64,000 nucleotides of DNA, from contig NZ_JAKFUM010000002.1 of the NCBI RefSeq assembly GCF_021732705.1, positions 124,001 to 188,000 on the forward strand, written 5' to 3'. The notes beneath the pieces are model-generated. The model was not told the DNA's origin and ran no database searches. It saw only the letters and a program-made list of their open reading frames with translations. Shown here piece after piece: positions 34,337 through 45,465 of this stretch (position 1 is its first letter; every line of letters starts with the position of its first letter). The stretch comes from Nevskia sp. Lineage in GTDB: Bacteria > Pseudomonadota > Gammaproteobacteria > Nevskiales > Nevskiaceae. The translations under genes and the position numbers were made by a program.

Positions 34337-35743
34337 TCACATCACGCCGCTGGCGACTTCCGGAATCTGTTCGAGTGCGTCCTCGATGATCTCCAGCGAA
34401 TGCAGGCACTCCTCCCGGGTCGAGATGCCGCCGAGGCAGACCCGCACCGCTTCCGGCGCCGGACCGGTGACGGTGAAGGCGTCGGACACCACGACACCGA
34501 CGCCGCTGGCGCGCAGATGGGTCGAGAACTCGATGCGGTTCCACGGCGGCGGCACGTTCAGCCACAGGTGGAACGCTTCCGGATCGGCCTTGAAATCGGC
34601 CCGGCGCAGGATCTTCCGGGCCAGCGCCTGCCGCGCGCGCGACTCGTCGCGGATCGCGTCGGTGGCCTGCTTCACGGTGCCGTCGTTGATCCACTGCGTG
34701 GCGAGGAACGTCGTGATCGGCGACGCCATCACGCTCGACGTGCGCAGGCTCGACGCGAGGCGCGCCGTGTAGCGCGTGTTCGGCGCCGCGAGATAGCCGA
34801 CGCGCAGGCCGGCACCGACGCACTTGGCGAAGCCGGTGACATGAAAGGTCAGCTCCGGCGCCAGCACGGCCAGCGGCGTCGGCGGCGCACTCGGCAGGAA
34901 TCCGTAGGCATCGTCCTCGATGATCGGTACCGAATAGCGGCGCGCGATCTCGACGATCGCTTCGCGACGCGCCTGCGACATCGTCACCGTGGTCGGGTTC
35001 AGCATCGTCGGATTGCAGTACAGCGCCTTCGGCAGCAGCGAGGCGCAGGCGGCGCCGAAGGCTTCCGGATCGATGCCTTCGTCGTCGCACGGCAAGCCCA
35101 TCAGGCGAATGCCAAGCTGGGCCGCGAGGCCCTTCACGCCGGGATACGTGACCGATTCGCAGCAGATGGTCTCGCCGGCGCGCGCCAGCACGCTGAACAG
35201 CGACAGCAGTGCCGACTGCACGCCGGGCACCACCAGCACGCGATTCGGCGGCAGCGCCGGAATGCGCTCGCCGAGCCAGCGGGCACCGGCTTCGCGATCC
35301 GCCGGACCGCCGCCGAATTCCTGATAGCGCAGCAGCGCGTGCAGGTCCGGCACCTCGCGCAGGGATCCGAGCCCGTTGCGCAGCATCTGGTGGATCGCCG
35401 ATTCCTGCGGCTCCGGCGGCATGTTCATGGTCATGTCGATCAGGCCCACGGCCGCCGGCGAGCGCACCACCGTCGACGGCACCGGCGTGGCGGGCACCAC
35501 GAACGTGCCGCGGCCGGCCTGGGAATCGATCAGCTTGCGCCGCTGCGCTTCGGCATAGCCGCGCGAGACGGTGGTGAAGTTCAGGTCGAGATGCTTGGCC
35601 AGCGCGCGCAGCGGTGGCAGGCGCTGCTCGGCGGCGAGGCGGCCGGCGGCGATGTCCTCAGCGATGGCGTCGGCAATCGCGAGATATGCCGGCTTGGTGC
35701 TGGCGCGGATCATCGCGGCCCAGCGGTTCGGCGTCGTGCCCAT
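34337..35743 (-). CDS. MocR-type regulator: GntR helix-turn-helix fused to aminotransferase fold
   Basis: A 468-residue protein. The GntR winged helix is at about 10-80 (ADAIAEDIAAGRLAAEQRLPPLRALAKHLDLNFTTVSRGYA). The fold-type I aminotransferase domain is at about 110-460, with CNPTMLNPTTVTMSQARR, the Asp/Tyr of IIEDDAYGFLPS and the PLP Lys in VTGFAKCVGAG. MocR proteins sense PLP or an amino compound and often bind direct repeats. The gene is divergent from the second nitG copy across a 348-base spacer, and four bases separate it from modE. It is a candidate regulator of the nit region; its ligand is unknown. Confidence 0.9.
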   Translation of the reverse strand: MGTTPNRWAAMIRASTKPAYLAIADAIAEDIAAGRLAAEQRLPPLRALAKHLDLNFTTVSRGYAEAQRRKLIDSQAGRGTFVVPATPVPSTVVRSPAAVGLIDMTMNMPPEPQESAIHQMLRNGLGSLREVPDLHALLRYQEFGGGPADREAGARWLGERIPALPPNRVLVVPGVQSALLSLFSVLARAGETICCESVTYPGVKGLAAQLGIRLMGLPCDDEGIDPEAFGAACASLLPKALYCNPTMLNPTTVTMSQARREAIVEIARRYSVPIIEDDAYGFLPSAPPTPLAVLAPELTFHVTGFAKCVGAGLRVGYLAAPNTRYTARLASSLRTSSVMASPITTFLATQWINDGTVKQATDAIRDESRARQALARKILRRADFKADPEAFHLWLNVPPPWNRIEFSTHLRASGVGVVVSDAFTVTGPAPEAVRVCLGGISTREECLHSLEIIEDALEQIPEVASGVM

Positions 35744-36091
35744 CGTGGCTGTCCTGTCGTGCGGCGCCGCGTTAGTCGCTGCACCGGGAACGGGCAGCGG
35801 CAACTGCGGATTGGAGTTCGGTGGGCCATCGCGAGACGTGCAGCCGCCGCGAGATGGCGGATCGAACCGACGCCTGGCGCGGTGCCGTCGCCTACGGCGT
35901 TGCCGGGCGGCCAACAAATATCACGTCATTTCATCGGTCTGGCGCAATGATCGCACGATGATCGCAGACCAGAAAGCGGGCCTTGGCACATCGCTTGCGC
36001 GGGTTCGATCACTGCGCCGTGCAAGGCGCAGCAATTCGATCAGGCAGCATTGTCCGAGGGCTGCCGCTCGCATCCGCACAGGAGACTGGAC
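35744..36091. other. Divergent spacer, mocR-like gene / second nitG
   Basis: A 348-base non-coding stretch. The right half holds the sigma-54 type promoter and direct repeat described separately. The left half holds a short AT-rich patch (35913-35932) that may serve the leftward regulator gene. Nothing else was recognised. Confidence 0.5.
35948..35998 (+). promoter_or_regulatory. Sigma-54 promoter with TGATCGCA direct repeat, second nitG
   Basis: TTGGCAC (35983-35989) and TTGC (35995-35998) give the -24/-12 elements with exactly ten bases between GG and GC. Upstream lies TGATCGCA-N3-TGATCGCA at 35948-35966, both copies perfect, ending 17 bases before TGGCAC. The leader to the ATG at 36092 is about 82 nt. 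The same arrangement precedes nitB, and a one-copy version precedes the porin gene. Confidence 0.8.
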
Positions 36092-36379
36092 ATGCCCGAA
36101 GTCCATTTCCGCGTTCGCTGGCCCGATCACACGGCCACGCGCTGCTATTCCCCGTCCACCACGATTCGCCGCACGCTTGGTGCCGGCCGCAGCTTCCCGC
36201 TGGGCGAGTTCGTCGAGATCAGCCGCGCCGCGCTCGAACGCGGCAGCGAGCGAGTGCGCCGCAAGCACGGCTTCGCCTGCGGCCGGGCGGAAATGCAGAT
36301 CGCGATCATCGAAAGCTTTGCCGCGCGCTACGCCGGTCAGCCGGATGCGCGGGTGACGATCGAGGCGTACGAGGAATAA
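36092..36379 (+). CDS. MSMEG_0570-family nitrogen-starvation protein, second copy
   Basis: A 95-residue protein that closely resembles NitG at 43848. Both start MPE, then RF/HF-x-VRWPDxT, C-Y-SPS-T-I-R, then a PL-x-x-F-V-x-x-S-x-AAL segment and S-ERVR-x-x-x-G-(Y/F)-AC. No catalytic motif is evident, and the two Cys are shared by both copies. The ATG at 36092 follows an AGGAGA site, matching the family length. The gene stands alone outside the nit operon behind its own sigma-54 type promoter, divergent from a MocR-type regulator. Confidence 0.88.
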   Translation: MPEVHFRVRWPDHTATRCYSPSTTIRRTLGAGRSFPLGEFVEISRAALERGSERVRRKHGFACGRAEMQIAIIESFAARYAGQPDARVTIEAYEE

Positions 36380-36494
36380 GGCTGCCTCGCGGTGCCTGCG
36401 CACAAGATCAAGACGCAGACGGAAGCGACGCCCTGCCCTTCCACCCGCGTGACCTGCCTCGAGCGTGCCCCCCAGCGGGCCTGTCGGCTTTCGA

Positions 36495-36896
36495 TCAGGC
36501 AGCCACCGGCTTGGCCAGCTTGCCGGCGCTCAGCAGGTAGGCAAAGGTCGAGGCATAACCGATCACCGTCGCCGGGATCGCCGAGAACACTGGCAGATTC
36601 GCGGCCAGCGCCATGCAGGCCGTGGTCGCTCCGACGACGATCGCCGGCCACATCGCACCCGGCAACGGCACGGGCACGTTGAGAATGATCAGCGATGCCA
36701 CCGACGCCAGCACCACGCCGAGGCTGCCGCAGATCACCCGATTCTTGAACGCCTCCTTGCTGCCGCCGAGGGCGACACCCATGCAGGTGGCGAGGAATAC
36801 GGCCCAGATGAAGAACAAGCCGTAGGACAGCGCGAGGCAGGTGAGCAGCGCACCGATCACACCGAGCGGAACCGCAAGCGCATTGACGAATTTCAT
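36495..36896 (-). CDS. DUF1097 inner-membrane protein
   Basis: A 133-residue membrane protein with about five helices; it starts MKFVNALAVPLGVIGALL and ends SAGKLAKPVAA. FFIWAVFLATCMGVALGGSKEAF matches the DUF1097 (YcdZ-like) family of unknown function. It lies downstream of the porin gene on the same strand, separated by 209 bases with a long hairpin. Co-expression with the porin and a role in transport of the nit substrate or product are inferences from position only. Confidence 0.8.
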   Translation of the reverse strand: MKFVNALAVPLGVIGALLTCLALSYGLFFIWAVFLATCMGVALGGSKEAFKNRVICGSLGVVLASVASLIILNVPVPLPGAMWPAIVVGATTACMALAANLPVFSAIPATVIGYASTFAYLLSAGKLAKPVAA

Positions 36897-37000
36897 GAAG
36901 TGACTTCTCGGCAATTGGATGAGCAACGAAGGAATGGAAACTTCATGACGAGAACGGCCGGATGCCCGCAGCAGCGCGCGAGACCCGCAGGTCACAAAGA

Positions 37001-37039
37001 CCGGATGCCTGACGCGGCCGTTTCACGGCAGGCATCCGG
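37001..37039 (-). terminator. Hairpin between porin and DUF1097 genes
   Basis: Perfect 11-bp arms CCGGATGCCTG / CAGGCATCCGG around a 17-base loop. Read leftward it is followed by TCTTTGTG, a weak T-run. It probably acts as a partial terminator or message-stabilising element that lowers DUF1097 expression relative to the porin. Confidence 0.55.
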
Positions 37040-37105
37040 GTACCGCGACAACTCGGTTGCAGCCCATCGATCAACGCGACGGCGCGCGTCGACCTCACGC
37101 AAACA

Positions 37106-38407
37106 TCAGAACGAGATGAAGAAACCGAAGTTGAAGTTCGAGGTATCGACGGTCTGATTGTTGTTGGCCTTGGACTTGGCGTCGGTGTACTCGCTGGTCA
37201 GCGTCAGGTTCGGCAGCAGCTTGTGGTACAGGCCGACCGTGTACTTGCTGTTGGCCTTCAGCAGCGTGCCGCCATCGACATCGCCATCGGTCGAGTTCAG
37301 GCGGCTGATGCCGTAGTTCGCGCCGAGCGTGGTCTTGCCGTAGGTGTACGTCGCCTGGATGTAGCCGCCTTGCGAGATGCGCGCCTTGCCGGTCGGCGAA
37401 AAGCCTTCGATGAAGTACGAGTACGCCCCCAGACCTTCGCCGTAGTAGTAGTGACCCACGAGTGCGGCGCCGCCGTACGCGACCTTGCCGGTGAAGTCGA
37501 CACCGATCGCGACCGGGTTGCTGTCGGTCAGTACGGCACCGCCGCCCGGCGCGGTCAGCTCGTGCTTCTGGTACAGGCCGCTGAATGAGCCGAAGCCGTT
37601 GAGACCCTTGGCATCGCCGAACTTGTACTTCACCTGGCCCTGCAAGCCCGGCGCCGGCTTGGCGGAACTGGACGAACTGGCGCTGATGCCGGTCACGCTC
37701 AAGCTGTCCAGCGGCTGGAAGATGCCGATCGCACCGCTCAGGCCGCCGAAGTCCGGCGAGAGGTAGGTGATGCCGGCGTTCGGGGTCGAGAACAGATGGC
37801 CGAAGCCGATGGTGCCGAGCGTGGTGTTCGCCGGCGACAGCGCCGTGCGGACGCTGGCGACACCGACGGCGATCAGGGTGATGTCGTTGACGATCGCATC
37901 GAAGCCGAGGAACGAGTAGTCGCGGCCGATCTTCAGCGTGCCGAGCGACTTGTTGCCGAACGTCGCGTACAGCTGGCGAACATCGAGATTCGGCGTGCCG
38001 AGGGCCACGTTGCCCGAGCCGCCGGTCTGGATGTTCGGGCCGTTGCCGAACGCGAAATCATTGTTCGCGACACCCGGGTAGAAGCCGTAGTACACCGCCG
38101 AATCGATGCCTTCGAACGTGGTCTTCACGCCGAGCACGATGCCGTTCGGCAGGTTGCCGGAGTTCAGGCTCGACGCGTGGTTCGACGCGCCTGGCGGTGC
38201 GGCGCACAGCAGGCTGCCGGCCACCGCACCGGGCGTCTTGTCGCAGGTCGTGAACGTGTAGTTGGTGTTGACGTTGCCCGTGACGCTGAACGTCACGCCA
38301 TTGGTTTCGACGGCGAAGGCCTGGGCGGCACCGCTGATGCCGAGGCCAGTGCCGAGGAACAGCAGGGCGGCGCTGCCGCGCGTCAGGATGCGGGTATTGC
38401 AGGTCAT
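37106..38407 (-). CDS. Gram-negative porin, outer membrane
   Basis: A 433-residue beta-barrel with a signal peptide (about 1-30, ending AQA|FAVETNGVTF) and C-terminal FGFFISF. The eyelet-type segment RQLYATFGNKSLGTLKIGRDYSFLG, the Gly/Asn-rich loops and the alternating strands fit the general porin family of beta- and gammaproteobacteria. A short Ser run (SASSSSSAK) lies mid-barrel. It is divergent from the nit operon across 990 bases and carries its own sigma-54 type promoter with the TGATCGCA box, so it is probably the outer-membrane entry route tied to the nit pathway. Confidence 0.88.
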   Translation of the reverse strand: MTCNTRILTRGSAALLFLGTGLGISGAAQAFAVETNGVTFSVTGNVNTNYTFTTCDKTPGAVAGSLLCAAPPGASNHASSLNSGNLPNGIVLGVKTTFEGIDSAVYYGFYPGVANNDFAFGNGPNIQTGGSGNVALGTPNLDVRQLYATFGNKSLGTLKIGRDYSFLGFDAIVNDITLIAVGVASVRTALSPANTTLGTIGFGHLFSTPNAGITYLSPDFGGLSGAIGIFQPLDSLSVTGISASSSSSAKPAPGLQGQVKYKFGDAKGLNGFGSFSGLYQKHELTAPGGGAVLTDSNPVAIGVDFTGKVAYGGAALVGHYYYGEGLGAYSYFIEGFSPTGKARISQGGYIQATYTYGKTTLGANYGISRLNSTDGDVDGGTLLKANSKYTVGLYHKLLPNLTLTSEYTDAKSKANNNQTVDTSNFNFGFFISF

Positions 38408-38494
38408 GGTTTGACTCCCTTGTGGTTGAGCGATCGGATGCCGCGTGGCTGAAGGTCGAACCGGCAGCCCGTGCCGGATTCGCTGATCGCCGGA

Positions 38495-38533
38495 GCAACC
38501 GATATGCCAACTGTTTCGTTTTTTATGCGATCA
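38495..38533 (-). promoter_or_regulatory. Sigma-54 promoter with TGATCGCA box, porin gene
   Basis: Reading leftward, TTGGCAT (38510-38504) and TTGC (38498-38495) have ten bases between GG and GC. TGATCGCA lies at 38533-38526, ending 16 bases before TGGCAT. Only one box copy is present here. The leader to the porin ATG is about 77 nt. The -24 element differs from consensus at its last base (T for C). Confidence 0.72.
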
Positions 38534-38670
38534 CTTGACCCAAATGTTTCGCAATGTGTTGCTGCTCAAGGGAATTCCGGGCCGAACAATTTTTTCGGAA
38601 GCGTCGCCCGCCCGGCGAACGAGGGACGACGCGTCGCGACGCGGGCAGACCGCATTGCGGTGACGGGTTT

Positions 38671-38703
38671 TAGAGTTCAATGAATTGATTTTATTGAACT
38701 TTA
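38671..38703. promoter_or_regulatory. Long inverted repeat in porin-nit spacer
   Basis: Arms TAGAGTTCAAT and ATTGAACTTTA (one mismatch) flank an 11-base AT-rich spacer. It could be an operator for a dimeric regulator; it lies about 160 bases upstream of the porin sigma-54 promoter, a usual distance for an enhancer site. Confidence 0.45.
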
Positions 38704-38773
38704 ACCGGATACACCGTGCGGCTCGCCGGATCTTCGCCAGCCTCGCCACATCGCGCGGGCCGCTGCGGCATTC

Positions 38774-38792
38774 GCGATCACACAGCGATCAC
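38774..38792 (-). promoter_or_regulatory. Distal TGATCGC direct repeat facing the porin
   Basis: Reading leftward, TGATCGCT-GTG-TGATCGCG: two seven-base matches to the octamer with the same 11-bp period as at the nitB and second-nitG promoters. It lies about 260-280 bases upstream of the porin -24 element. Confidence 0.5.
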
Positions 38793-39262
38793 GCTGCTCG
38801 GAGACACCGCGGTGCCCGACCGGACGGCGCTTGCACCACAACGGATCGCACGCAGAACACCGTGCAACAGTCAGTCGACTTGAAATCGCGATCTATCAAT
38901 CACTTGGGGTGATTGTTTCATCGTGGTGCGCATTCGCGCGATCACGGTGCCGCGCCAGGCGCTGCCACGCATGCCGCTCGATCGGATCGACCGACTCTTG
39001 CCCTGTGGTTTCGAGCGTGCAGCGGCTCGCGGCTGGCGAAGGGCATTCACGCGCGATGCGCCGGAATCCTCGAGAAAAACAGGCCCTGTCGATCTCGCGG
39101 GACTTGTGCACCGTTCGCGAGCACCCATTCGGACCGCCTGCGCCGTTTTCTGGCATGCGCAGGCAAGGCAAGTCGTCCGCGTGGCGACGCGGCGCGATCA
39201 CGAACGGCGGCGACCGCAGCCACAGGCCGCAAATCTCCTGAAAAACCAACAGTCTTGCCGAT

Positions 39263-39312
39263 TGATCGCATTTTGATCGCATTTTCGGGCGAAGCGATGG
39301 CACACGGCTTGC
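39263..39312 (+). promoter_or_regulatory. Sigma-54 promoter with TGATCGCA direct repeat, nit operon
   Basis: TGATCGCA-TTT-TGATCGCA at 39263-39281 has both copies perfect and an 11-bp period. Sixteen bases later come TGGCAC (39298-39303) and TTGC (39309-39312), with ten bases between GG and GC. The leader to the nitB ATG is about 85 nt. Confidence 0.82.
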
Positions 39313-39397
39313 GATGACCCTTCCGTGCAGCCGGACCCGGCGCACAGCCCGCCGTCCCGCAGACCCCACCGCCGATTCCCAACAGGAGCAAACGCCA

Positions 39398-39877
39398 ATG
39401 CCAGCCGTCACCACCCCGCCGACCAAGAAGGGCGATTTCTTCGTCGATTACGAACAGAAGGTTTTCGAAGATGTGAAGGCCAAGCCGGGCGAGAAGGCGC
39501 TGGTCACCTTCCACACCGTCGCCTTCGAAGGTTCGATCGGCCTCGTCAACATCCTTCAGGCCAAGCGCCTGCAGCGCAAGGGCTTCGAGACCTCGATCCT
39601 GCTGTACGGCCCGGGCGTGACCTTGGGCATCCAGCGCGGCTTCCCGACCATCGGCGATGAAGCCTTCCCCGGCGCGCAGAACTTCTCCGGCCAGCTGAAC
39701 GCGTTCATGGCCGAAGGCGGCAAGGTCTATTGCTGCCGCTTCGCGCTGCAGATGCTGTACGGCCACGGCGAGCATTCGCTGCTGCCGGGAATCATTCCGA
39801 TCAACCCGCTCGATGTCCTGGACCTGTGCCTGCTGCATCGCGAAGGCGCGTTCGTGATCCACACCTGGACGGTCTGA
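39398..39877 (+). CDS. nitB: NitB, MSMEG_0572/Sll0783-family nitrogen-starvation protein
   Basis: A 159-residue soluble protein, first gene of the Nit1C-type operon. It has a DsrE-like pattern: [40 protein letters not shown], and a conserved Cys pair in [17 protein letters not shown]. The family is strongly induced by nitrogen starvation in cyanobacteria and mycobacteria; its biochemical role is unknown. A good AGGAG ribosome site precedes the ATG. A large hairpin with a T-run separates it from nitC. Nit names follow the Nit1C cluster of cyanide-assimilating Pseudomonas. Confidence 0.92.
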
Positions 39878-39895
39878 AGCCGGTTTCTTCCTGCC

Positions 39896-39976
39896 CCACC
39901 CGCTGATCGTGCCCGTCGTGACCACGTTCCCCAATGCGTGCGAACGACGCTCGATCAGCCGGGTGGCGGCGTTTTT
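39896..39976 (+). terminator. Attenuator-like hairpin between nitB and nitC
   Basis: Outer arms at 39896-39909 and 39952-39966 pair over 14 bp with a single bulged G. Inner arms at 39914-39926 and 39937-39949 pair imperfectly (CGTCGT/ACGACG and CACG/CGTG). TTTTT follows at 39972-39976 after a short GC stretch. It is probably a leaky terminator or a 3'-end protector that sets nitB above nitC-H. Confidence 0.65.
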
Positions 39977-40022
39977 GCTGCATTGAACTCGCGGCCACCC
40001 GCCCTCCGCCACGGACCCCGCC

Positions 40023-41069
40023 ATGCCCGCCAGAAACATCGTCAGAGTCGCCGCCGCCCAGCTGAATCCGGTGCTCGACTCCGCGACCGGCACCGTCGAC
40101 AAGGTGCTGGAAGCGATCGCCGACGCCGCGCGTGAAGGCGCGCAGCTGATCGTGTTTCCGGAAACGGTGGTCCCGTACTACCCCTATTTCTCGTTCGTCA
40201 CGCCCGCCGTCTCGATGGGCGCGATCCATCTGAAGCTCTATGAACACTCACCGAGCATTCCCGGGCCGGTGACCGATGCCATTGCTGCCGCCGCCAAGGC
40301 GGCCGGCATGGTCGTCGTTCTTGGCGTCAACGAGCGTGACCACGGCACGCTTTACAACGCGCAGGTGATCTTCGATGCCGACGGCACGATGCTGCTCAAG
40401 CGCCGCAAGATCACCCCGACCTACCACGAGCGCATGGTCTGGGGCATGGGCGACGGCGCCGGCCTGAAGGTCGTAGACACCGCTGTCGGCCGGATCGGCG
40501 CGCTGGCCTGCTGGGAGCACTACAACCCGCTGGCCCGCTACGCGCTGATGGCCCAGCACGAGGAAATCCACTGCTCGCAGTTCCCGGGCTCGCTGGTCGG
40601 CCCGATCTTCGCGGACCAGATGGAAGTGACGATGCGTCACCACGCGCTGGAATCCGGCTGCTTCGTGGTCAACGCCACCGCCTGGCTGACGCCGGAGCAA
40701 AAAGCGGCGCAGGCGCCGACGCCGGAGCTGGAAAAAGCCTTCGCCGGCGGCTGCTACACCGCGATCATCACGCCGGAGGGCCGCCACGTGGTCGAACCGC
40801 TGCGCGACGGCGAAGGGCTGCTGATCGCCGACTGCGACCTCAACCTGATCACCAAGCGCAAGCGGATGATGGATTCGGTCGGCCATTACGCGCGCCCGGA
40901 AATCTTAAGTCTGGTGCTGGATTCGCGCGCCACCACCCCCGCATCCGGTCTGCCTGCCGCCACTGCACCGCTGCCGATCACCGTTCAGGACAACGCCGAA
41001 CAGGCGCCGTCCGAGCGCGTCGTTGCGCTTCCATCCGCCACCGACGCCCGCAAAACGGCGCTGCGCTGA
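40023..41069 (+). CDS. nitC: NitC, Nit6803-type nitrilase
   Basis: A 348-residue carbon-nitrogen hydrolase. The catalytic triad is Glu47 ([17 protein letters not shown]), Lys129 ([18 protein letters not shown]) and Cys163 ([19 protein letters not shown]). It belongs to the nitrilase 1C subgroup of Nit1C clusters. In Pseudomonas fluorescens NCIMB 11764 the cluster, including NitC, is needed for growth on cyanide as nitrogen source. Nit6803 enzymes hydrolyse various nitriles in vitro. The last 50 or so residues (Pro/Ala-rich) extend past the core. The in vivo substrate is not settled. Confidence 0.95.
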
Positions 41070-41111
41070 TTCTTGCTTCACCGCATCACCCGTTCACTGC
41101 CGGAGCTGTCC

Positions 41112-42236
41112 ATGGAACCCGCCAACACCTCGCAGTTGCTGACCGAGCTGCAATCGCAGGGGCTGCGTCTGGCCGATGACAGCGCCGGAGCGCCCAGCCG
41201 CCGCGGCGGTGCCGGACCCAGCGATCACAAGGCCGTGACCATTGACGGCCGCACGATCATGGTCCCGGTGCATTCGGCCGATGCGCGTGCGTCCGCGTTC
41301 GAAGTCGGCCTGCCGCGCGCCGATGGCGGCGTCACGCTCAAGCGCAACAGCATTCCGATCAAGGAAATCTCGTTTCCGAAGCAGCCCCGCTTCTACAAGC
41401 TGCAGACCTTCGATGGCGTGCCGTACTGGAAGATCGCGACCCTGCATGGCGCCGACGTGCTGGCGACCACCGTGCTGCAGACCTGCGTGCGCTACGGCCG
41501 CCGCAGCACCTCGTGCCAGTTCTGCGCGATCGGCGAATCGCTGAAGGGCGATCGCACGATCAACCGCAAGACGCCGGAACAGCTCGGCGAAGTGGCGCGC
41601 GCGGCGATGCTGCTCGACGGCATCCAGCACATGGTGATGACCACCGGCACGCCGAACTTCACCGATCGCGGCGCGGAAATCCTGCGCGAAAGCGCGTTCG
41701 GCGTGAAGGCGGCAACCGTCAACCACGCTGGCTTTGCCAGCGGCCTGCCGATCCAGGGCCAGTGCGAGCCGCCGGATGATCCGCGCTGGTACCAGCGGAT
41801 GAAGAACGCCGGCATCGACACGCTCGGCATGCACATCGAAGCGGTGTCGCAGTCGGTGCGCGAGCAGATCATGCCGGGCAAGGCGACGGTCACCGTCGAT
41901 CACTACCTGACCGCGTTCGAGCAGGCGGTCGCCGTGTTCGGTCGCGGCCAGGTGTCGACCTACATCCTGTACGGATTGGGCGACACCCGCGAAGCGGTGC
42001 TGTCGATGAGCGAAAAGCTGATCACGCTCGGCGTCTACCCGTTCGTGGTGCCGTTCGTGCCGATCGCCGGCACGCCGCTGGAAAACCAGCGCTCGCCGGA
42101 TGCCGCGGAGATGCGCGAGCTGCTGGCCCCGCTTGGCAGGATGCTGGTGAGCGGCGGGCTCAAGTCGGCCGAGATCAAGGCCGGCTGCGGCAAGTGCGGC
42201 GCCTGCTCGTCGCTGTCCGCCTACGAGAAGGCCTAA
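41112..42236 (+). CDS. nitD: NitD, MSMEG_0568-family radical SAM protein
   Basis: A 374-residue radical SAM enzyme of unknown reaction. The cluster Cys are spaced C125-X9-C135-X2-C138 (TCVRYGRRSTSCQFCAIG) rather than the usual CX3CX2C. A second Cys set, C359-X2-C362-X2-C365 (CGKCGACSS), lies near the C-terminus and may hold an auxiliary cluster. The ATG at 41112 gives the family start; an earlier non-ATG start is possible. The stop lies three bases before nitE. Confidence 0.92.
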   Translation: MEPANTSQLLTELQSQGLRLADDSAGAPSRRGGAGPSDHKAVTIDGRTIMVPVHSADARASAFEVGLPRADGGVTLKRNSIPIKEISFPKQPRFYKLQTFDGVPYWKIATLHGADVLATTVLQTCVRYGRRSTSCQFCAIGESLKGDRTINRKTPEQLGEVARAAMLLDGIQHMVMTTGTPNFTDRGAEILRESAFGVKAATVNHAGFASGLPIQGQCEPPDDPRWYQRMKNAGIDTLGMHIEAVSQSVREQIMPGKATVTVDHYLTAFEQAVAVFGRGQVSTYILYGLGDTREAVLSMSEKLITLGVYPFVVPFVPIAGTPLENQRSPDAAEMRELLAPLGRMLVSGGLKSAEIKAGCGKCGACSSLSAYEKA

Positions 42237-42239
42237 GCG

Positions 42240-42818
42240 ATGCGCGCCGCCGACTGGATTCCCGCCTGCGCCGCCAGCGAAACCGTCGCCGACTATCGGC
42301 CGGTCGAGTACCGCGTGAAGCTGGCGACCGAAGCCTGGGAACTGCGCGAAGCGCGCGCCTTGCGCCGCGCGGTGTTCTGCGCCGAGCAACGCTTGTTCAA
42401 CTTCACCGATGCCGACGATGTCGATGACGACAAAGCTGCAATCACGCTGGTCGCCGTGTCCTGCATCCACAGCATGTCCGAGGATGTGGTCGGCACGGTG
42501 AGAGTCCACGCGCTCGGCAACGATGTCTGGCAAGGCTCGCGGCTCGCCGTGCGCCGCGACTATCGCGGCCAGGCCTGGCTCGGCAGCGAGCTGATCCACC
42601 TCGCCGTCAGCCTCGCCCATGCGCGCGGCGCGCAGCGCTTCGTCGCCCAGGTCCAGCAGCAGAACGTGGCGCTGTTCGAGCGCCTGCACTGGCGCGCCCT
42701 GGAAGCGATCGAACTGCGAGGGCGACCGCACTGGCGGATGGAAGCGGATCTCGCGCATTACCCGCCGTGCGGAAGTGTCGAGCGCGGCTTCATCACAACC
42801 TTGCGGAGTGCCGCGTGA
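42240..42818 (+). CDS. nitE: NitE, MSMEG_0567/Sll0786-family GNAT acetyltransferase
   Basis: A 192-residue GNAT-fold protein. The acetyl-CoA loop region is LAVRRDYRGQAWLGSELIHLA (R-x-x-x-G-x-A/G pattern). The N-terminal helix EARALRRAVFCAEQRLF resembles autoinducer-synthase-like GNATs that bind a substrate near FCxEQ. Substrate unknown. It starts three bases after nitD and overlaps nitF by four bases (GTGA). Confidence 0.9.
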   Translation: MRAADWIPACAASETVADYRPVEYRVKLATEAWELREARALRRAVFCAEQRLFNFTDADDVDDDKAAITLVAVSCIHSMSEDVVGTVRVHALGNDVWQGSRLAVRRDYRGQAWLGSELIHLAVSLAHARGAQRFVAQVQQQNVALFERLHWRALEAIELRGRPHWRMEADLAHYPPCGSVERGFITTLRSAA

Positions 42819-43819
42819 GCGCGTCGCTGTCGCAATTGATCGCCGCCCTGCACTGCAGCCGCGGGGTTGCCCACAAGCGCGACATCAGTGCCGTGGTTGC
42901 CGCACTCGGCATTGGTGGCGACAGCGCCATCAAGGTCGGCGATGACTGCGCGGCGATCCCTGACCCGTCCGGCGACGGCTGGCTGCTGCTGGCGATCGAA
43001 GGCTTCCTGACCGAGTTCGTCGAGCGCGAACCGCGCTTCGCCGGCTGGTGCGGCGTGATGGTCAATGTCTCGGACATCTATGCGATGGGCGGCCGGCCGA
43101 TCGCCGTCGTCGATGCGATCTGGAGCCGCGATGCCGTGCACGGCAAAGCGATCCTCGACGGCATGGCCGAGGCAGCACGCGTCTACGGCGTGCCAGTGGT
43201 CGGCGGTCATGCCAATGCCCGCGCCGGCCATGAGCAACTGTCGGTGGCGATCCTCGGTCGCGCCAGCGCGCTGCTGTCGAGCTTCGACGCGAAGCCCGGC
43301 GATGTGCTGATCGCCGCCACCGACCTGCGGGGCGGCTATCGCCCGCATTTCTCGAACTGGGACGCCGCCAGCGGCAGCGACCCGGAACGCCTGCGCGGCG
43401 ATCTCGACATCCTGCCGACACTCGCCGAAGACCGGCTGTGCTGTGCCGCCAAGGACATCAGCAATGCCGGCCTGCTCGGCACGCTGCTGATGCTGCTGGA
43501 GTGCTCGAACGTCGGGGCCGAGGTCGATCTCGATCAGGTACCGATGCCGGCGGACGCTGACCCGCTGCGCTGGCTGCTGCACACCTTTCCGAGCTACGGC
43601 TTCCTGCTGGCGGTGCGGCCGAGCAAGGTCGACGACGTGCTGGCGCGTTTCCTCGCGCGCGACATCTCGGCATCCGCCATCGGCCGTTGCACGGCGGCGC
43701 GACAACTCCATCTGACCGACGACGGCGACCGCGCGCTGGCCTGGGATTTCGAGCAGCAACCGCTGATCGGCTGCGCGCCGACGATCGCAGCACCGGTCGC
43801 ACAGCGCCGCGCCGCCTGA
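42815..43819 (+). CDS. nitF: NitF, Sll0787-family AIR synthase-like protein
   Basis: A 334-residue protein of the PurM/SelD/ThiL superfamily that binds ATP. The N-terminal AIRS domain has the metal/nucleotide segment KVGDDCAAIP and MVNVSDIYAMGGRPIAVVDA; the C-terminal domain starts CAAKDISNAGLLGTLLML. Relatives phosphorylate or activate small substrates. It starts at GTG 42815 inside the nitE stop; the in-frame ATG upstream overlaps nitE by 52 bases and is less likely. The Nit1C context supports the call. Confidence 0.92.
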   Translation: MSASLSQLIAALHCSRGVAHKRDISAVVAALGIGGDSAIKVGDDCAAIPDPSGDGWLLLAIEGFLTEFVEREPRFAGWCGVMVNVSDIYAMGGRPIAVVDAIWSRDAVHGKAILDGMAEAARVYGVPVVGGHANARAGHEQLSVAILGRASALLSSFDAKPGDVLIAATDLRGGYRPHFSNWDAASGSDPERLRGDLDILPTLAEDRLCCAAKDISNAGLLGTLLMLLECSNVGAEVDLDQVPMPADADPLRWLLHTFPSYGFLLAVRPSKVDDVLARFLARDISASAIGRCTAARQLHLTDDGDRALAWDFEQQPLIGCAPTIAAPVAQRRAA

Positions 43820-43847
43820 TCACGACCCTTCATCCTTTCGAATCCCG

Positions 43848-44132
43848 ATGCCTGAACTCCGCTTCGAAGTCCGTTGGCCCGATGACACCACGACGCTGTG
43901 CTATTCGCCGTCATCGACGATCCGCGACTACTTCACGCCCGGCCAGCCGTATCCGCTGAAGGACTTCGTGCGCCTGAGCCAGGCCGCGCTGCATCTGGCC
44001 AGCGAGCGCGTGCGTCAGCGTTACGGGTACGCCTGTTCGAGTGCCGCGCACCAGATGTCCGAAATCGAACGGCGCGCCAGCCAATACCAGACCGATCCCG
44101 CCGCGACGGTCACCGTCGTCCGCTTCAGTTGA
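43848..44132 (+). CDS. nitG: NitG, MSMEG_0570-family nitrogen-starvation protein
   Basis: A 94-residue protein of unknown function, the operon copy of the pair. It starts MPELRFEVRWPDDTTTLCYS and ends with a short basic-polar strand. It shares FEVRWPDxT, the CYSPSSTIR block and SERVRQRYGYACSSA with the second copy at 36092. Because the two are so alike, one may be a subunit exchange partner or a regulator of the other. It lies 28 bases after nitF. Confidence 0.93.
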   Translation: MPELRFEVRWPDDTTTLCYSPSSTIRDYFTPGQPYPLKDFVRLSQAALHLASERVRQRYGYACSSAAHQMSEIERRASQYQTDPAATVTVVRFS

Positions 44133-44163
44133 TTGCCGCGCCTCACGCACACCCCTGGAATCC

Positions 44164-45465
44164 ATGAACGCCATGACTCGCTCGCTGCCACCCAACCACT
44201 ACCCCGTCATCGTCATCGGTGGCGGCCAGGCCGGCCTGTCGGCAAGCTGGCATCTGAAGCAGCGCGGCATCGCCCACGTGGTGTTCGAGAAGCAGCGCAT
44301 CGCCCATGAATGGCGCGAGCATCGCTGGGATTCGTTCTGTCTGGTCACGCCGAACTGGCAGTGCACGCTGCCCGGCTTCCCGTATCAGGGCAACGATCCG
44401 TACGGCTTCATGCTGAAGGACGAGATCGTCCAGTACATCGAGGCCTTCGTCGCGAGCTTCGAGCCACCGGTGCTTGAAGGCGTTGCCGTCACCCGCGTCA
44501 GTCAGAACGACGGCGGTGGTTACACCGTGATGACCTCGATCGGCGAGTACACGGCCAATGAAGTGATCGTCGCCAGCGGCGCGTATCAGGTGCCGGTCAA
44601 GCCGGCCAGCGCCGAGCGCCTGCCGCAGACGATGCTGCAGATGCATGCGCCGCAGTACCGGAATGCCGATGCGCTGCCGCCCGGCGCGGTGCTGATCGTC
44701 GGCACCGGCCAGAGCGGCTGCCAGATCGCCGAGGACCTGCATCTCGCCGGGCGCAAGGTGCACCTGTGCGTCGGCGGTGCGCCACGCGCACCGCGCCGCT
44801 ATCGCGGCAAGGATGCCGTCGAGTGGCTGAACCAGATGGGCTATTACGACATCGGAATTCACGAGCATCCGAACAAGGAGCGCGTGCGCTCGAAGTCCAA
44901 CCACTACCTCACCGGCCGTGACGGCGGCCGCGAGATCGACCTGCGCAAGTTCGCGTCCGAAGGCATGGAACTGTATGGCCGGCTCGACGACATTCGCGGC
45001 ACCACGATCACCGTCAAGCCGGATCTGGAAAAGAACCTCGACAGCGCCGACGCGACCCTGGAATCGATCAAGGACAGCATCGACGCCTACATCGCCCGCG
45101 CCGGCATCGACGCGCCGACCGAGCCGCGCTATGTGCCGGTTTGGAAGCCGACCGCCGAGCGCACGGCGTTCGACTTCGCCGAAGCCGGCATCACCACGGT
45201 GATCTGGTGCATCGGCTACAAGGCCGACTTCCGCTGGATCGACGTGCCGGTGTTCGACGGCCGCGGCTACCCCGGGCACGATCGCGGCATCACCACCGTA
45301 CCCGGCCTGTATTTCATCGGCCTGCCGTGGCTGTACACCTGGGGCTCGGGCCGCTTCTCCGGCGTGGCGCGGGATGCCCAGCACATCGTCGATCGGATCG
45401 CGTCACGGCTGCACAGCACGCCGCGGGTGGCGACCGGCCTGAATGCGCTGGCGCTGGGCAGCTAG
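44164..45465 (+). CDS. nitH: NitH, MSMEG_0569-family flavin-dependent oxidoreductase
   Basis: A 433-residue FAD/NADPH enzyme of the flavin monooxygenase type, last gene of the operon. The FAD motif is VIGGGQAGLSASWHL (about 18-32) and the NADPH motif is VGTGQSGCQIAEDL (about 182-195). WREHRWDSFCLVTPNWQCTLPGFPY and GLPWLYTWGSGRFSGVARDA are family-specific. In the Nit1C model it oxygenates or oxidises the pathway intermediate. The glycosyltransferase (MSMEG_0565 type) found in some clusters is not present here. Confidence 0.93.
   Translation: MNAMTRSLPPNHYPVIVIGGGQAGLSASWHLKQRGIAHVVFEKQRIAHEWREHRWDSFCLVTPNWQCTLPGFPYQGNDPYGFMLKDEIVQYIEAFVASFEPPVLEGVAVTRVSQNDGGGYTVMTSIGEYTANEVIVASGAYQVPVKPASAERLPQTMLQMHAPQYRNADALPPGAVLIVGTGQSGCQIAEDLHLAGRKVHLCVGGAPRAPRRYRGKDAVEWLNQMGYYDIGIHEHPNKERVRSKSNHYLTGRDGGREIDLRKFASEGMELYGRLDDIRGTTITVKPDLEKNLDSADATLESIKDSIDAYIARAGIDAPTEPRYVPVWKPTAERTAFDFAEAGITTVIWCIGYKADFRWIDVPVFDGRGYPGHDRGITTVPGLYFIGLPWLYTWGSGRFSGVARDAQHIVDRIASRLHSTPRVATGLNALALGS

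Follow-up and report, generated by a model that had tools for sequence, protein, structure and literature searches.

What controls a nitrilase operon, and what binds a short box that recurs beside its promoter? Both questions arise in a 64,000-nt stretch of a Nevskia sp. genome of 4.53 Mb (4,531,486 bp), called here the window, within which positions are counted and which carries a complete Nit1C operon at 39398-45465. Cyanide assimilation in Pseudomonas is reported to require the Nit1C nitrilase (PMC11049912), yet in the DNA upstream of Nit1C Podar et al. 2005 were unable to identify conserved binding sites (PMC1199592). A sequence-only reading of the window had proposed that an orphan nitG copy, a porin-DUF1097 unit and the nit operon form a sigma-54 regulon with a shared octamer, TGATCGCA, which may bind a non-canonical partner of sigma-54. 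Our analysis upholds the sigma-54 regulon and offers a better explanation of the box, in the form of a MocR-type regulator gene of the same window that was missing from that reading. We consider that the box is very probably an operator half-site of this MocR at sigma-54-type promoters.

Composite promoters of the nit region

Pattern searches recovered the proposed arrangement. Each of the three -24/-12 elements contains GG-N10-GC, the octamer ends 17, 16 and 16 bases before TGG, and the leaders are predicted at 82, 76 and 74 nt (75-85 nt in the sequence-only reading); for leaders and box positions alike, +1 was assumed 24 nt past the second G. The boxes then fall at about -62/-55 and -51/-44 in the nitG promoter, at about -61/-54 and -50/-43 in the nit promoter, and at about -50/-43 in the porin promoter, that is, from about -43 upstream and clear of the core promoter. 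At nitG and nit the octamer forms an exact direct repeat with an 11-bp period, and all five exact copies of TGATCGCA in the window stand beside these three promoters (Table 1).

Could a GC-rich genome yield such octamers and promoter look-alikes by chance? The octamer count alone (5 against 4.15 expected in the window) and the count of -24/-12 patterns with one mismatch (4 against 2.99) are at chance level, and within the order the one-box pattern, which misses 24 of the 34 nit-bearing genomes, matched 16 of 85 genomes, six of them away from nit and ten at nit or nitG promoters, with one control match. The combination of octamer and -24/-12 is unusual, unlike either part alone. The composite TGATYGCA-N14-19-TGGYAY-N6-TGC occurs three times in the own genome, each time in the window, with no match for the backward-read control. 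Its two-box form is present at two places in the own genome and in none of the other 368 genomes of a class sample (369 in total), an exact pattern that misses the variant repeats of two nit- and MocR-bearing members (G303 and G365). Given also that all three promoters are conserved, chance can be regarded as a negligible explanation, which agrees with the first judgement of this arrangement.

The nearest nitB relatives are found in six metagenome-assembled genomes (97-98% identity), four of them labelled Nevskia. When the nit, nitG and porin promoters were aligned with such Nevskia-type relatives (7, 6 and 4 aligned sequences, respectively), boxes and promoters appeared as islands of identity within otherwise diverged intergenic DNA. 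The exceptions are nit box 1, which reads CGATTGCA in L028, nitG box 2, which reads TGATTGCA in L025, and the porin box, which reads TTGATCGT in two of the four sequences (three relatives being aligned there). Over a wider range, we took the nearest 80 of 366 nitB relatives from 84,980 species genomes. A -24/-12 score of at least 18 was reached within 400 bases upstream of nitB in 66 of these 80 loci; in 20 shuffled sets the average was 4.4 and the highest count 8. Conservation of both box and promoter upstream of nitB homologues, the check that had been suggested for the regulon, is borne out. Judged by GG-N10-GC and its retention in orthologues, the three promoters are of the sigma-54 type.

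Two further sequences were seen near these promoters. Just 5' of the nit boxes, at 39243-39251, a stretch AAACCAACA is conserved in 7/7 aligned sequences. Far upstream of the porin promoter, at 38773..38791 on the minus strand, there is an imperfect second repeat, TGATCGCTGTGTGATCGCG, with an 11-bp period and no aligned counterpart in the three relatives of the porin-promoter alignment.

The MocR regulator and its proposed operator repeat

Divergent from the orphan nitG copy lies a gene for a 468-aa protein (stop codon 34337-34339), in which Pfam recognized a GntR winged helix (PF00392, residues 20-82) and an aminotransferase class I/II domain (PF00155, residues 131-446). By this fusion of a winged helix to a fold-type-I aminotransferase, the protein is a member of the MocR subfamily. 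The best NCBIfam match was the ectoine regulator EhuR (NF052286), an identity that we rejected since its 438.2 bits are under the curated cut-off of 480. The lysine expected to bind pyridoxal phosphate (PLP), K307, together with D277, Y280, N244 and R434, is invariant in 25/25 aligned MocR homologues. The roles of these pocket residues are assumed here by analogy to aspartate aminotransferase, R434 presumably being the carboxylate-binding arginine. A pocket kept in this way would be compatible with cyanide itself and equally with an amino-acid-like ligand, 3-cyanoalanine for example.

The linkage of this regulator to nit was examined in 89 loci, comprising the window, the 80 loci above, three added loci and five chosen plasmids (L131-L134, mentioned below, are outside every count). 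A MocR homologue was found in 81 loci, and in 71 it is divergent from nit and adjacent (<900 bp), or in 72 when L033 is counted, where the divergent adjacent MocR is the second-best match. Outside the 71 are the window, L023-L028, L033, L036, L066, L068, L076, L085, L086, L093, L100, L102 and L104. In the window and five relatives, MocR adjoins the orphan nitG promoter with the boxes in between. L024 and L076 have repeats and no MocR on the stretch, which stops at a contig edge in both, and in L100 part of a MocR gene lies on the same strand, cut by a contig edge. Within the order, nitB is present in 34 of 85 genomes, and MocR was matched at E<=1e-140 in the same 34 and in none of the other 51, a cut placed in the gap between 4e-144 and 3e-70 after that gap had been seen (at 1e-60, five more genomes match). 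Synteny clustering was left aside, since spurious frames from GC-rich DNA overwhelmed it.

To describe the repeat, the 71 MocR-nit regions were reduced to 42 non-redundant clusters. The most widespread 8-mer, ATTGATTG, occurred with one mismatch in 42/42 regions, compared with 30-33 of 42 for the best word in five shuffled sets. A matrix with the consensus ATTGATYGCAT was built from 241 sites. Half-trained matrices found at least two sites in 20/21 and 20/21 regions of the other half (shuffled maximum 3), and the full matrix did so in 40/42 regions against 8/739 control windows of the same loci; all matrices, cross-validated ones included, were seeded from ATTGATTGCAT, a word that had itself come from the complete set. 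Because the site threshold of 9 misses weaker second copies, single-site results in Nevskia-type loci are undercounts. Among the stepped repeats upstream of -24/-12, TGATCGCA or TGATTGCA predominates in gamma- and betaproteobacteria, most alphaproteobacteria have TGAATGNA or TGACTGNA, and TGTATGNA is frequent in Rhodobacterales and Agrobacterium. In many regions a second group of sites lies near the MocR start, which suggests that MocR controls its own gene too.

Same-strand repeats most often follow each other at a spacing of 11-12, and smaller groups of spacings appear at 21-24 and 31-34. Relative to the promoter, the repeats prefer fixed helical steps: within 60 bases in the 35 clusters with a -24/-12 element, 54 of 57 same-strand repeats have TGG gaps of 16-17, 27-29, 39-41 or 51-53, which are 11 of the 61 possible values. 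The figure is weakened in that these values were named after the data had been seen and that neighbouring repeats are not independent. MocR operators are described as direct and/or inverted repeats, set off from each other by one helical turn or more (PMC5320631), and the nit repeats would be of this kind, provided that the repeat is the operator of the regulator.

Does the box belong to MocR or to the sigma-54 promoter? Seven of the 42 MocR clusters (L059, L061, L082, L088, L096, L113 and L115) have repeats and no strict -24/-12 element; in L061 the -12 reads GA. Conversely, L104, whose genome yielded no MocR match at E<=1e-20 and which has no repeat site, keeps a -24/-12 element, TGGTAT-N5-TTGCA. 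Because the box is kept in MocR loci lacking -24/-12 and is gone at the MocR-free L104, the box, as far as these loci tell, is tied to MocR and not to sigma-54. The proposal that it marks a non-canonical sigma-54 partner is thus not favoured in its original form; direct contact of MocR with sigma-54 polymerase may revive it in another. Sites were likewise absent at threshold 9 from L086, L066, L085, L093 and L102, which with L104 make up six MocR-free loci.

The winged helix points the same way. The residue before R46 (L/M or Q) separates the half-sites, with TGATY where it is L or M and TGA[AC]T or TGTAT where it is Q. The mean TGATY fraction is 0.86 in 25 clusters with L/M and 0.11 in 17 clusters with Q. 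On the MocR tree this difference comes down to essentially a single split and so counts as one event. Of that tree only the branching within nit-linked rows was used; an outgroup test was unusable, as the longest frame was taken for each paralogue and at least those of L125, L127 and L129 look wrong, with very long branches.

Two other owners of the box were weighed against MocR. The boxes could be enhancer sites of another AAA+ activator, lying unusually close to the promoter. NitA, a putative sigma-54-dependent regulator of the Fis family, is encoded divergently from Nit1C in Pseudomonas pseudoalcaligenes CECT 5344 (PMC11049912), and on an Acinetobacter plasmid (L131, 2902-4827) a sigma-54-type activator gene stands divergent from nitB in place of MocR. 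In that plasmid, the single NitA-type locus examined, matches to the repeat came down to three on the minus strand, weak (8.7-9.2) and isolated, with no stepped array. Neither the window nor the 80 loci yielded a GAFTGA-type frame (stretches of up to 7 kb a side; variant motifs would escape), so that an adjacent enhancer-binding protein was rejected as a candidate and a divergent AAA+ activator of the NitA kind was not seen at any of them. With the repeat also occurring where -24/-12 is missing and accompanying MocR, this explanation is improbable. Still less credit is due to a DNA-bending protein such as IHF that would bind the boxes and aid loop formation. Its place between a candidate enhancer and -24 would be suitable, but the boxes are stepped direct repeats, sites are also present on the MocR side of the region, they are absent at L104, and the half-site shifts with the MocR winged helix.

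Several observations weigh against MocR as the owner of the box at sigma-54 promoters, besides the single split and the gap values chosen in hindsight. The window's own MocR adjoins the nitG promoter, and the nit promoter is 3.5 kb off. The 89-locus sample leans to near kin, and five of the six MocR-free, repeat-free loci are from other phyla, which leaves L104 as the sole close control. The Acetobacter plasmid L132 has a distant MocR (35%) on the same strand as nit and two weak sites, with no -24/-12 found. In Novosphingobium L133 the MocR is divergent and sites are present, again with no -24/-12 found. In Rhodococcus L134 neither MocR nor sites were found. The promoters, the repeats, their spacing, the linkage to MocR and the co-occurrence of nitB and MocR are direct observations on the DNA.

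A possible joint action of MocR and sigma-54

MocR binding, its regulatory sign, its ligand and NtrC as the activator are what we infer from this arrangement. Sigma-54 polymerase requires an AAA+ activator, and MocR has no AAA+ domain, a further point against this reading. In the own genome, rpoN was matched at three places above the cut-off of TIGR02395 (G000:C1:508863 on L135, C8:183195 on L136, and C6:148669), two of which have genes for enhancer-binding proteins no more than about 5 kb away, and an NtrC gene was recognized in L002 (690.7 bits, cut-off 558.6). NtrC-like dyads scoring at least 16 are enriched, with 14/42 regions against 72/739 control windows (shuffled mean 3.0, maximum 8). 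At TGCACCGTTCGCGAGCA, the candidate enhancer of nit, a looser GCAC-type dyad could be aligned by eye in 5/6 relatives. The NtrC sites are no more than suggestive: they are degenerate, and the porin promoter is without a convincing one (p 0.19), both of which count against NtrC.

Given the NtrC and rpoN genes and the enriched dyads, we propose that an NtrC signal of nitrogen shortage is combined with a substrate signal through MocR. MocR, encoded divergently beside the genes under its control, would bind the ATTGATYGCAT direct repeats, stepped 11-12 bp, as dimers or dimer arrays. The bound sites would span about -43 to -62, with others at additional helical turns farther upstream, all keeping the preferred distances from the sigma-54 promoter. 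ATP-driven opening in nitrogen shortage would come from an AAA+ enhancer-binding protein, for which NtrC is the likeliest candidate, and MocR would add a second, substrate-linked input, perhaps cyanide or a nitrile. The outcome would be an AND gate of nitrogen starvation and a nitrile- or cyanide-related ligand sensed via PLP. That the sign of MocR is positive, making it a co-activator, we hold to be an even question; the whole chain, with both NtrC and a positive sign, is tentative and rather doubtful. Equally speculative is the suggestion that a PLP-dependent MocR senses cyanide or nitrile directly and, working from helically phased sites together with a separate AAA+ activator, co-activates sigma-54 polymerase in a ligand-gated manner.

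The opposite sign deserves attention. Nac at a sigma-54 promoter is a precedent for a block of looping, and MocR could be an anti-activator between enhancer and promoter that blocks looping of the AAA+ activator until a ligand releases it. The sites indeed lie between the candidate enhancers and -24 without overlapping the core promoter. Like nit, the cio cluster of P. pseudoalcaligenes, with its cyanide-related and nitrilase genes, has a divergent MocR, and this regulator was labelled a putative repressor on data cited as unpublished together with mutant growth (PMC8567248). That cluster is a different one; its regulator speaks against co-activation, and the sign of the nit MocR may be negative. 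On the other side, the preferred helical steps to -24 exceed what simple blocking needs, and the cyanide-dependent MocR of Pseudomonas aeruginosa, MpaR, is required for expression with its motif 61-62 bp upstream of start sites, much like box 1 (PMC10790758). We therefore rate anti-activation as a serious possibility, short of an even chance.

MpaR resembles the nit MocR in its type, in the cyanide signal and in the distance of its motif, similar to that of box 1 at nit and nitG. Putative PLP-pocket residues are needed for its function, and its authors report that PLP reacts spontaneously with cyanide (PMC10790758). It differs in its palindromic ATCTGAT motif, in predicted -35/-10 promoters and in its targets, ccoN4 and neighbours and not nit. 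The system of CECT 5344 has the same operon with a divergent regulator gene, and NitA is of a sigma-54-dependent family, but the divergent regulator here is a MocR (PMC11049912). In rhizopine catabolism, a divergent MocR also has paired direct repeats, of 11 bp and 13 bp apart; its authors did not rule out RpoN and saw no clear RpoN consensus elements (PMC10107442). Known members of the subfamily (GabR, TauR, PdxR, EhuR/EutR) are like the nit MocR in their two domains, the kept PLP lysine and, in operator repeats at helical-turn steps (PMC5320631), the layout of the repeats; the nit MocR differs in that its target promoters carry -24/-12.

Direct-repeat MocR operators (PMC5320631) and NitA beside Nit1C (PMC11049912) are thus already in print. 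The words "nitrilase" and "sigma54" are absent from the main text of PMC5320631, whose supplementary regulon tables may hold an unnamed equal group. In the titles, abstracts and passages covered, all from open-licence papers, we found no MocR linked to Nit1C or shown at a -24/-12 promoter. Most of the sampled nit loci can now be given a conserved site together with a named candidate for the regulator. If the proposal is true, sigma-54 control with a non-AAA+ metabolite sensor as a second key would be common to alpha-, beta- and gammaproteobacterial nit operons, and the pairing suggests a two-signal switch for nitrile or cyanide use in many proteobacteria. The many natural promoters with MocR sites at preferred sigma-54 distances make the question of a non-AAA+ sensor directly testable.

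Genes of the window and nit loci elsewhere

The operon follows the seven-gene order from nitB to nitH stated for Nit1C (PMC1199592), with six genes recognized by NCBIfam and the flavoprotein by Pfam. Neither NCBIfam nor Pfam matched the 433-aa protein ahead of the DUF1097 gene at E<=1e-5, and "porin" is the putative label of the sequence-only reading.

Table 1 Promoter elements and genes of the nit region, by position in the window
Feature	Position	Strand	Basis
MocR-type regulator, 468 aa, divergent from orphan nitG	34340..35743	-	Pfam, NCBIfam
NtrC-like dyad TGCACCGGGAACGGGCA, candidate nitG enhancer	35780..35796	+	score 17/20; 1.8% of 500 shuffles as good
Box 1, nitG promoter, TGATCGCA	35948..35955	+	exact octamer search, alignment with relatives
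Box 2, nitG promoter, TGATCGCA	35959..35966	+	exact octamer search, alignment with relatives
-24/-12 of orphan nitG, TGGCACATCGCTTGCG	35984..35999	+	pattern search, alignment with relatives
Orphan nitG copy (MSMEG_0570 family)	36092..36379	+	TIGR04042, 105.9 bits, cut-off 79.85
DUF1097 protein, second gene of porin unit	36495..36896	-	PF06496
433-aa protein, putative porin	37106..38407	-	open frame
-24/-12 of porin-DUF1097 unit, TGGCATATCGGTTGCT	38494..38509	-	pattern search, alignment with relatives
Single box, porin promoter, TGATCGCA	38526..38533	-	exact octamer search, alignment with relatives
NtrC-like dyad TGCACCGTTCGCGAGCA, candidate nit enhancer	39107..39123	+	score 17/20; 0.8% of 500 shuffles as good
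Box 1, nit promoter, TGATCGCA	39263..39270	+	exact octamer search, alignment with relatives
Box 2, nit promoter, TGATCGCA	39274..39281	+	exact octamer search, alignment with relatives
-24/-12 of nit operon, TGGCACACGGCTTGCG	39298..39313	+	pattern search, alignment with relatives
nitB (MSMEG_0572/Sll0783 family), first Nit1C gene	39398..39877	+	TIGR04044, 264.9 bits
Nit6803-family nitrilase	40023..41069	+	TIGR04048
Radical SAM protein (open frame starts 41073)	41106..42236	+	TIGR04043
GNAT acetyltransferase	42240..42818	+	TIGR04045
AIR synthase-like protein	42824..43819	+	TIGR04049
Operon nitG (MSMEG_0570 family)	43848..44132	+	TIGR04042
Flavin-dependent oxidoreductase, seventh Nit1C gene	44164..45465	+	Pfam Pyr_redox_3

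Some nit loci outside the window showed features of their own. In the Rhodobacterales loci L082, L088, L090, L096, L099 and L115, MocR and repeats are present and no -24/-12 element was found, which looks like a swap of promoter type under an unchanged regulator. In Ralstonia (L068:1153-6474), MocR adjoins genes for a second MSMEG_0567-type acetyltransferase, a Pnap_2097-family protein and a methylmalonyl-CoA mutase, and this second acetyltransferase unit, separate from the nit operon, has boxes and a -24/-12 element. nitB is also common on plasmids, with 515 matching records, 374 of them from Klebsiella; in one Klebsiella record the MocR frame ends at 396 aa, compared with 466 in Pantoea.

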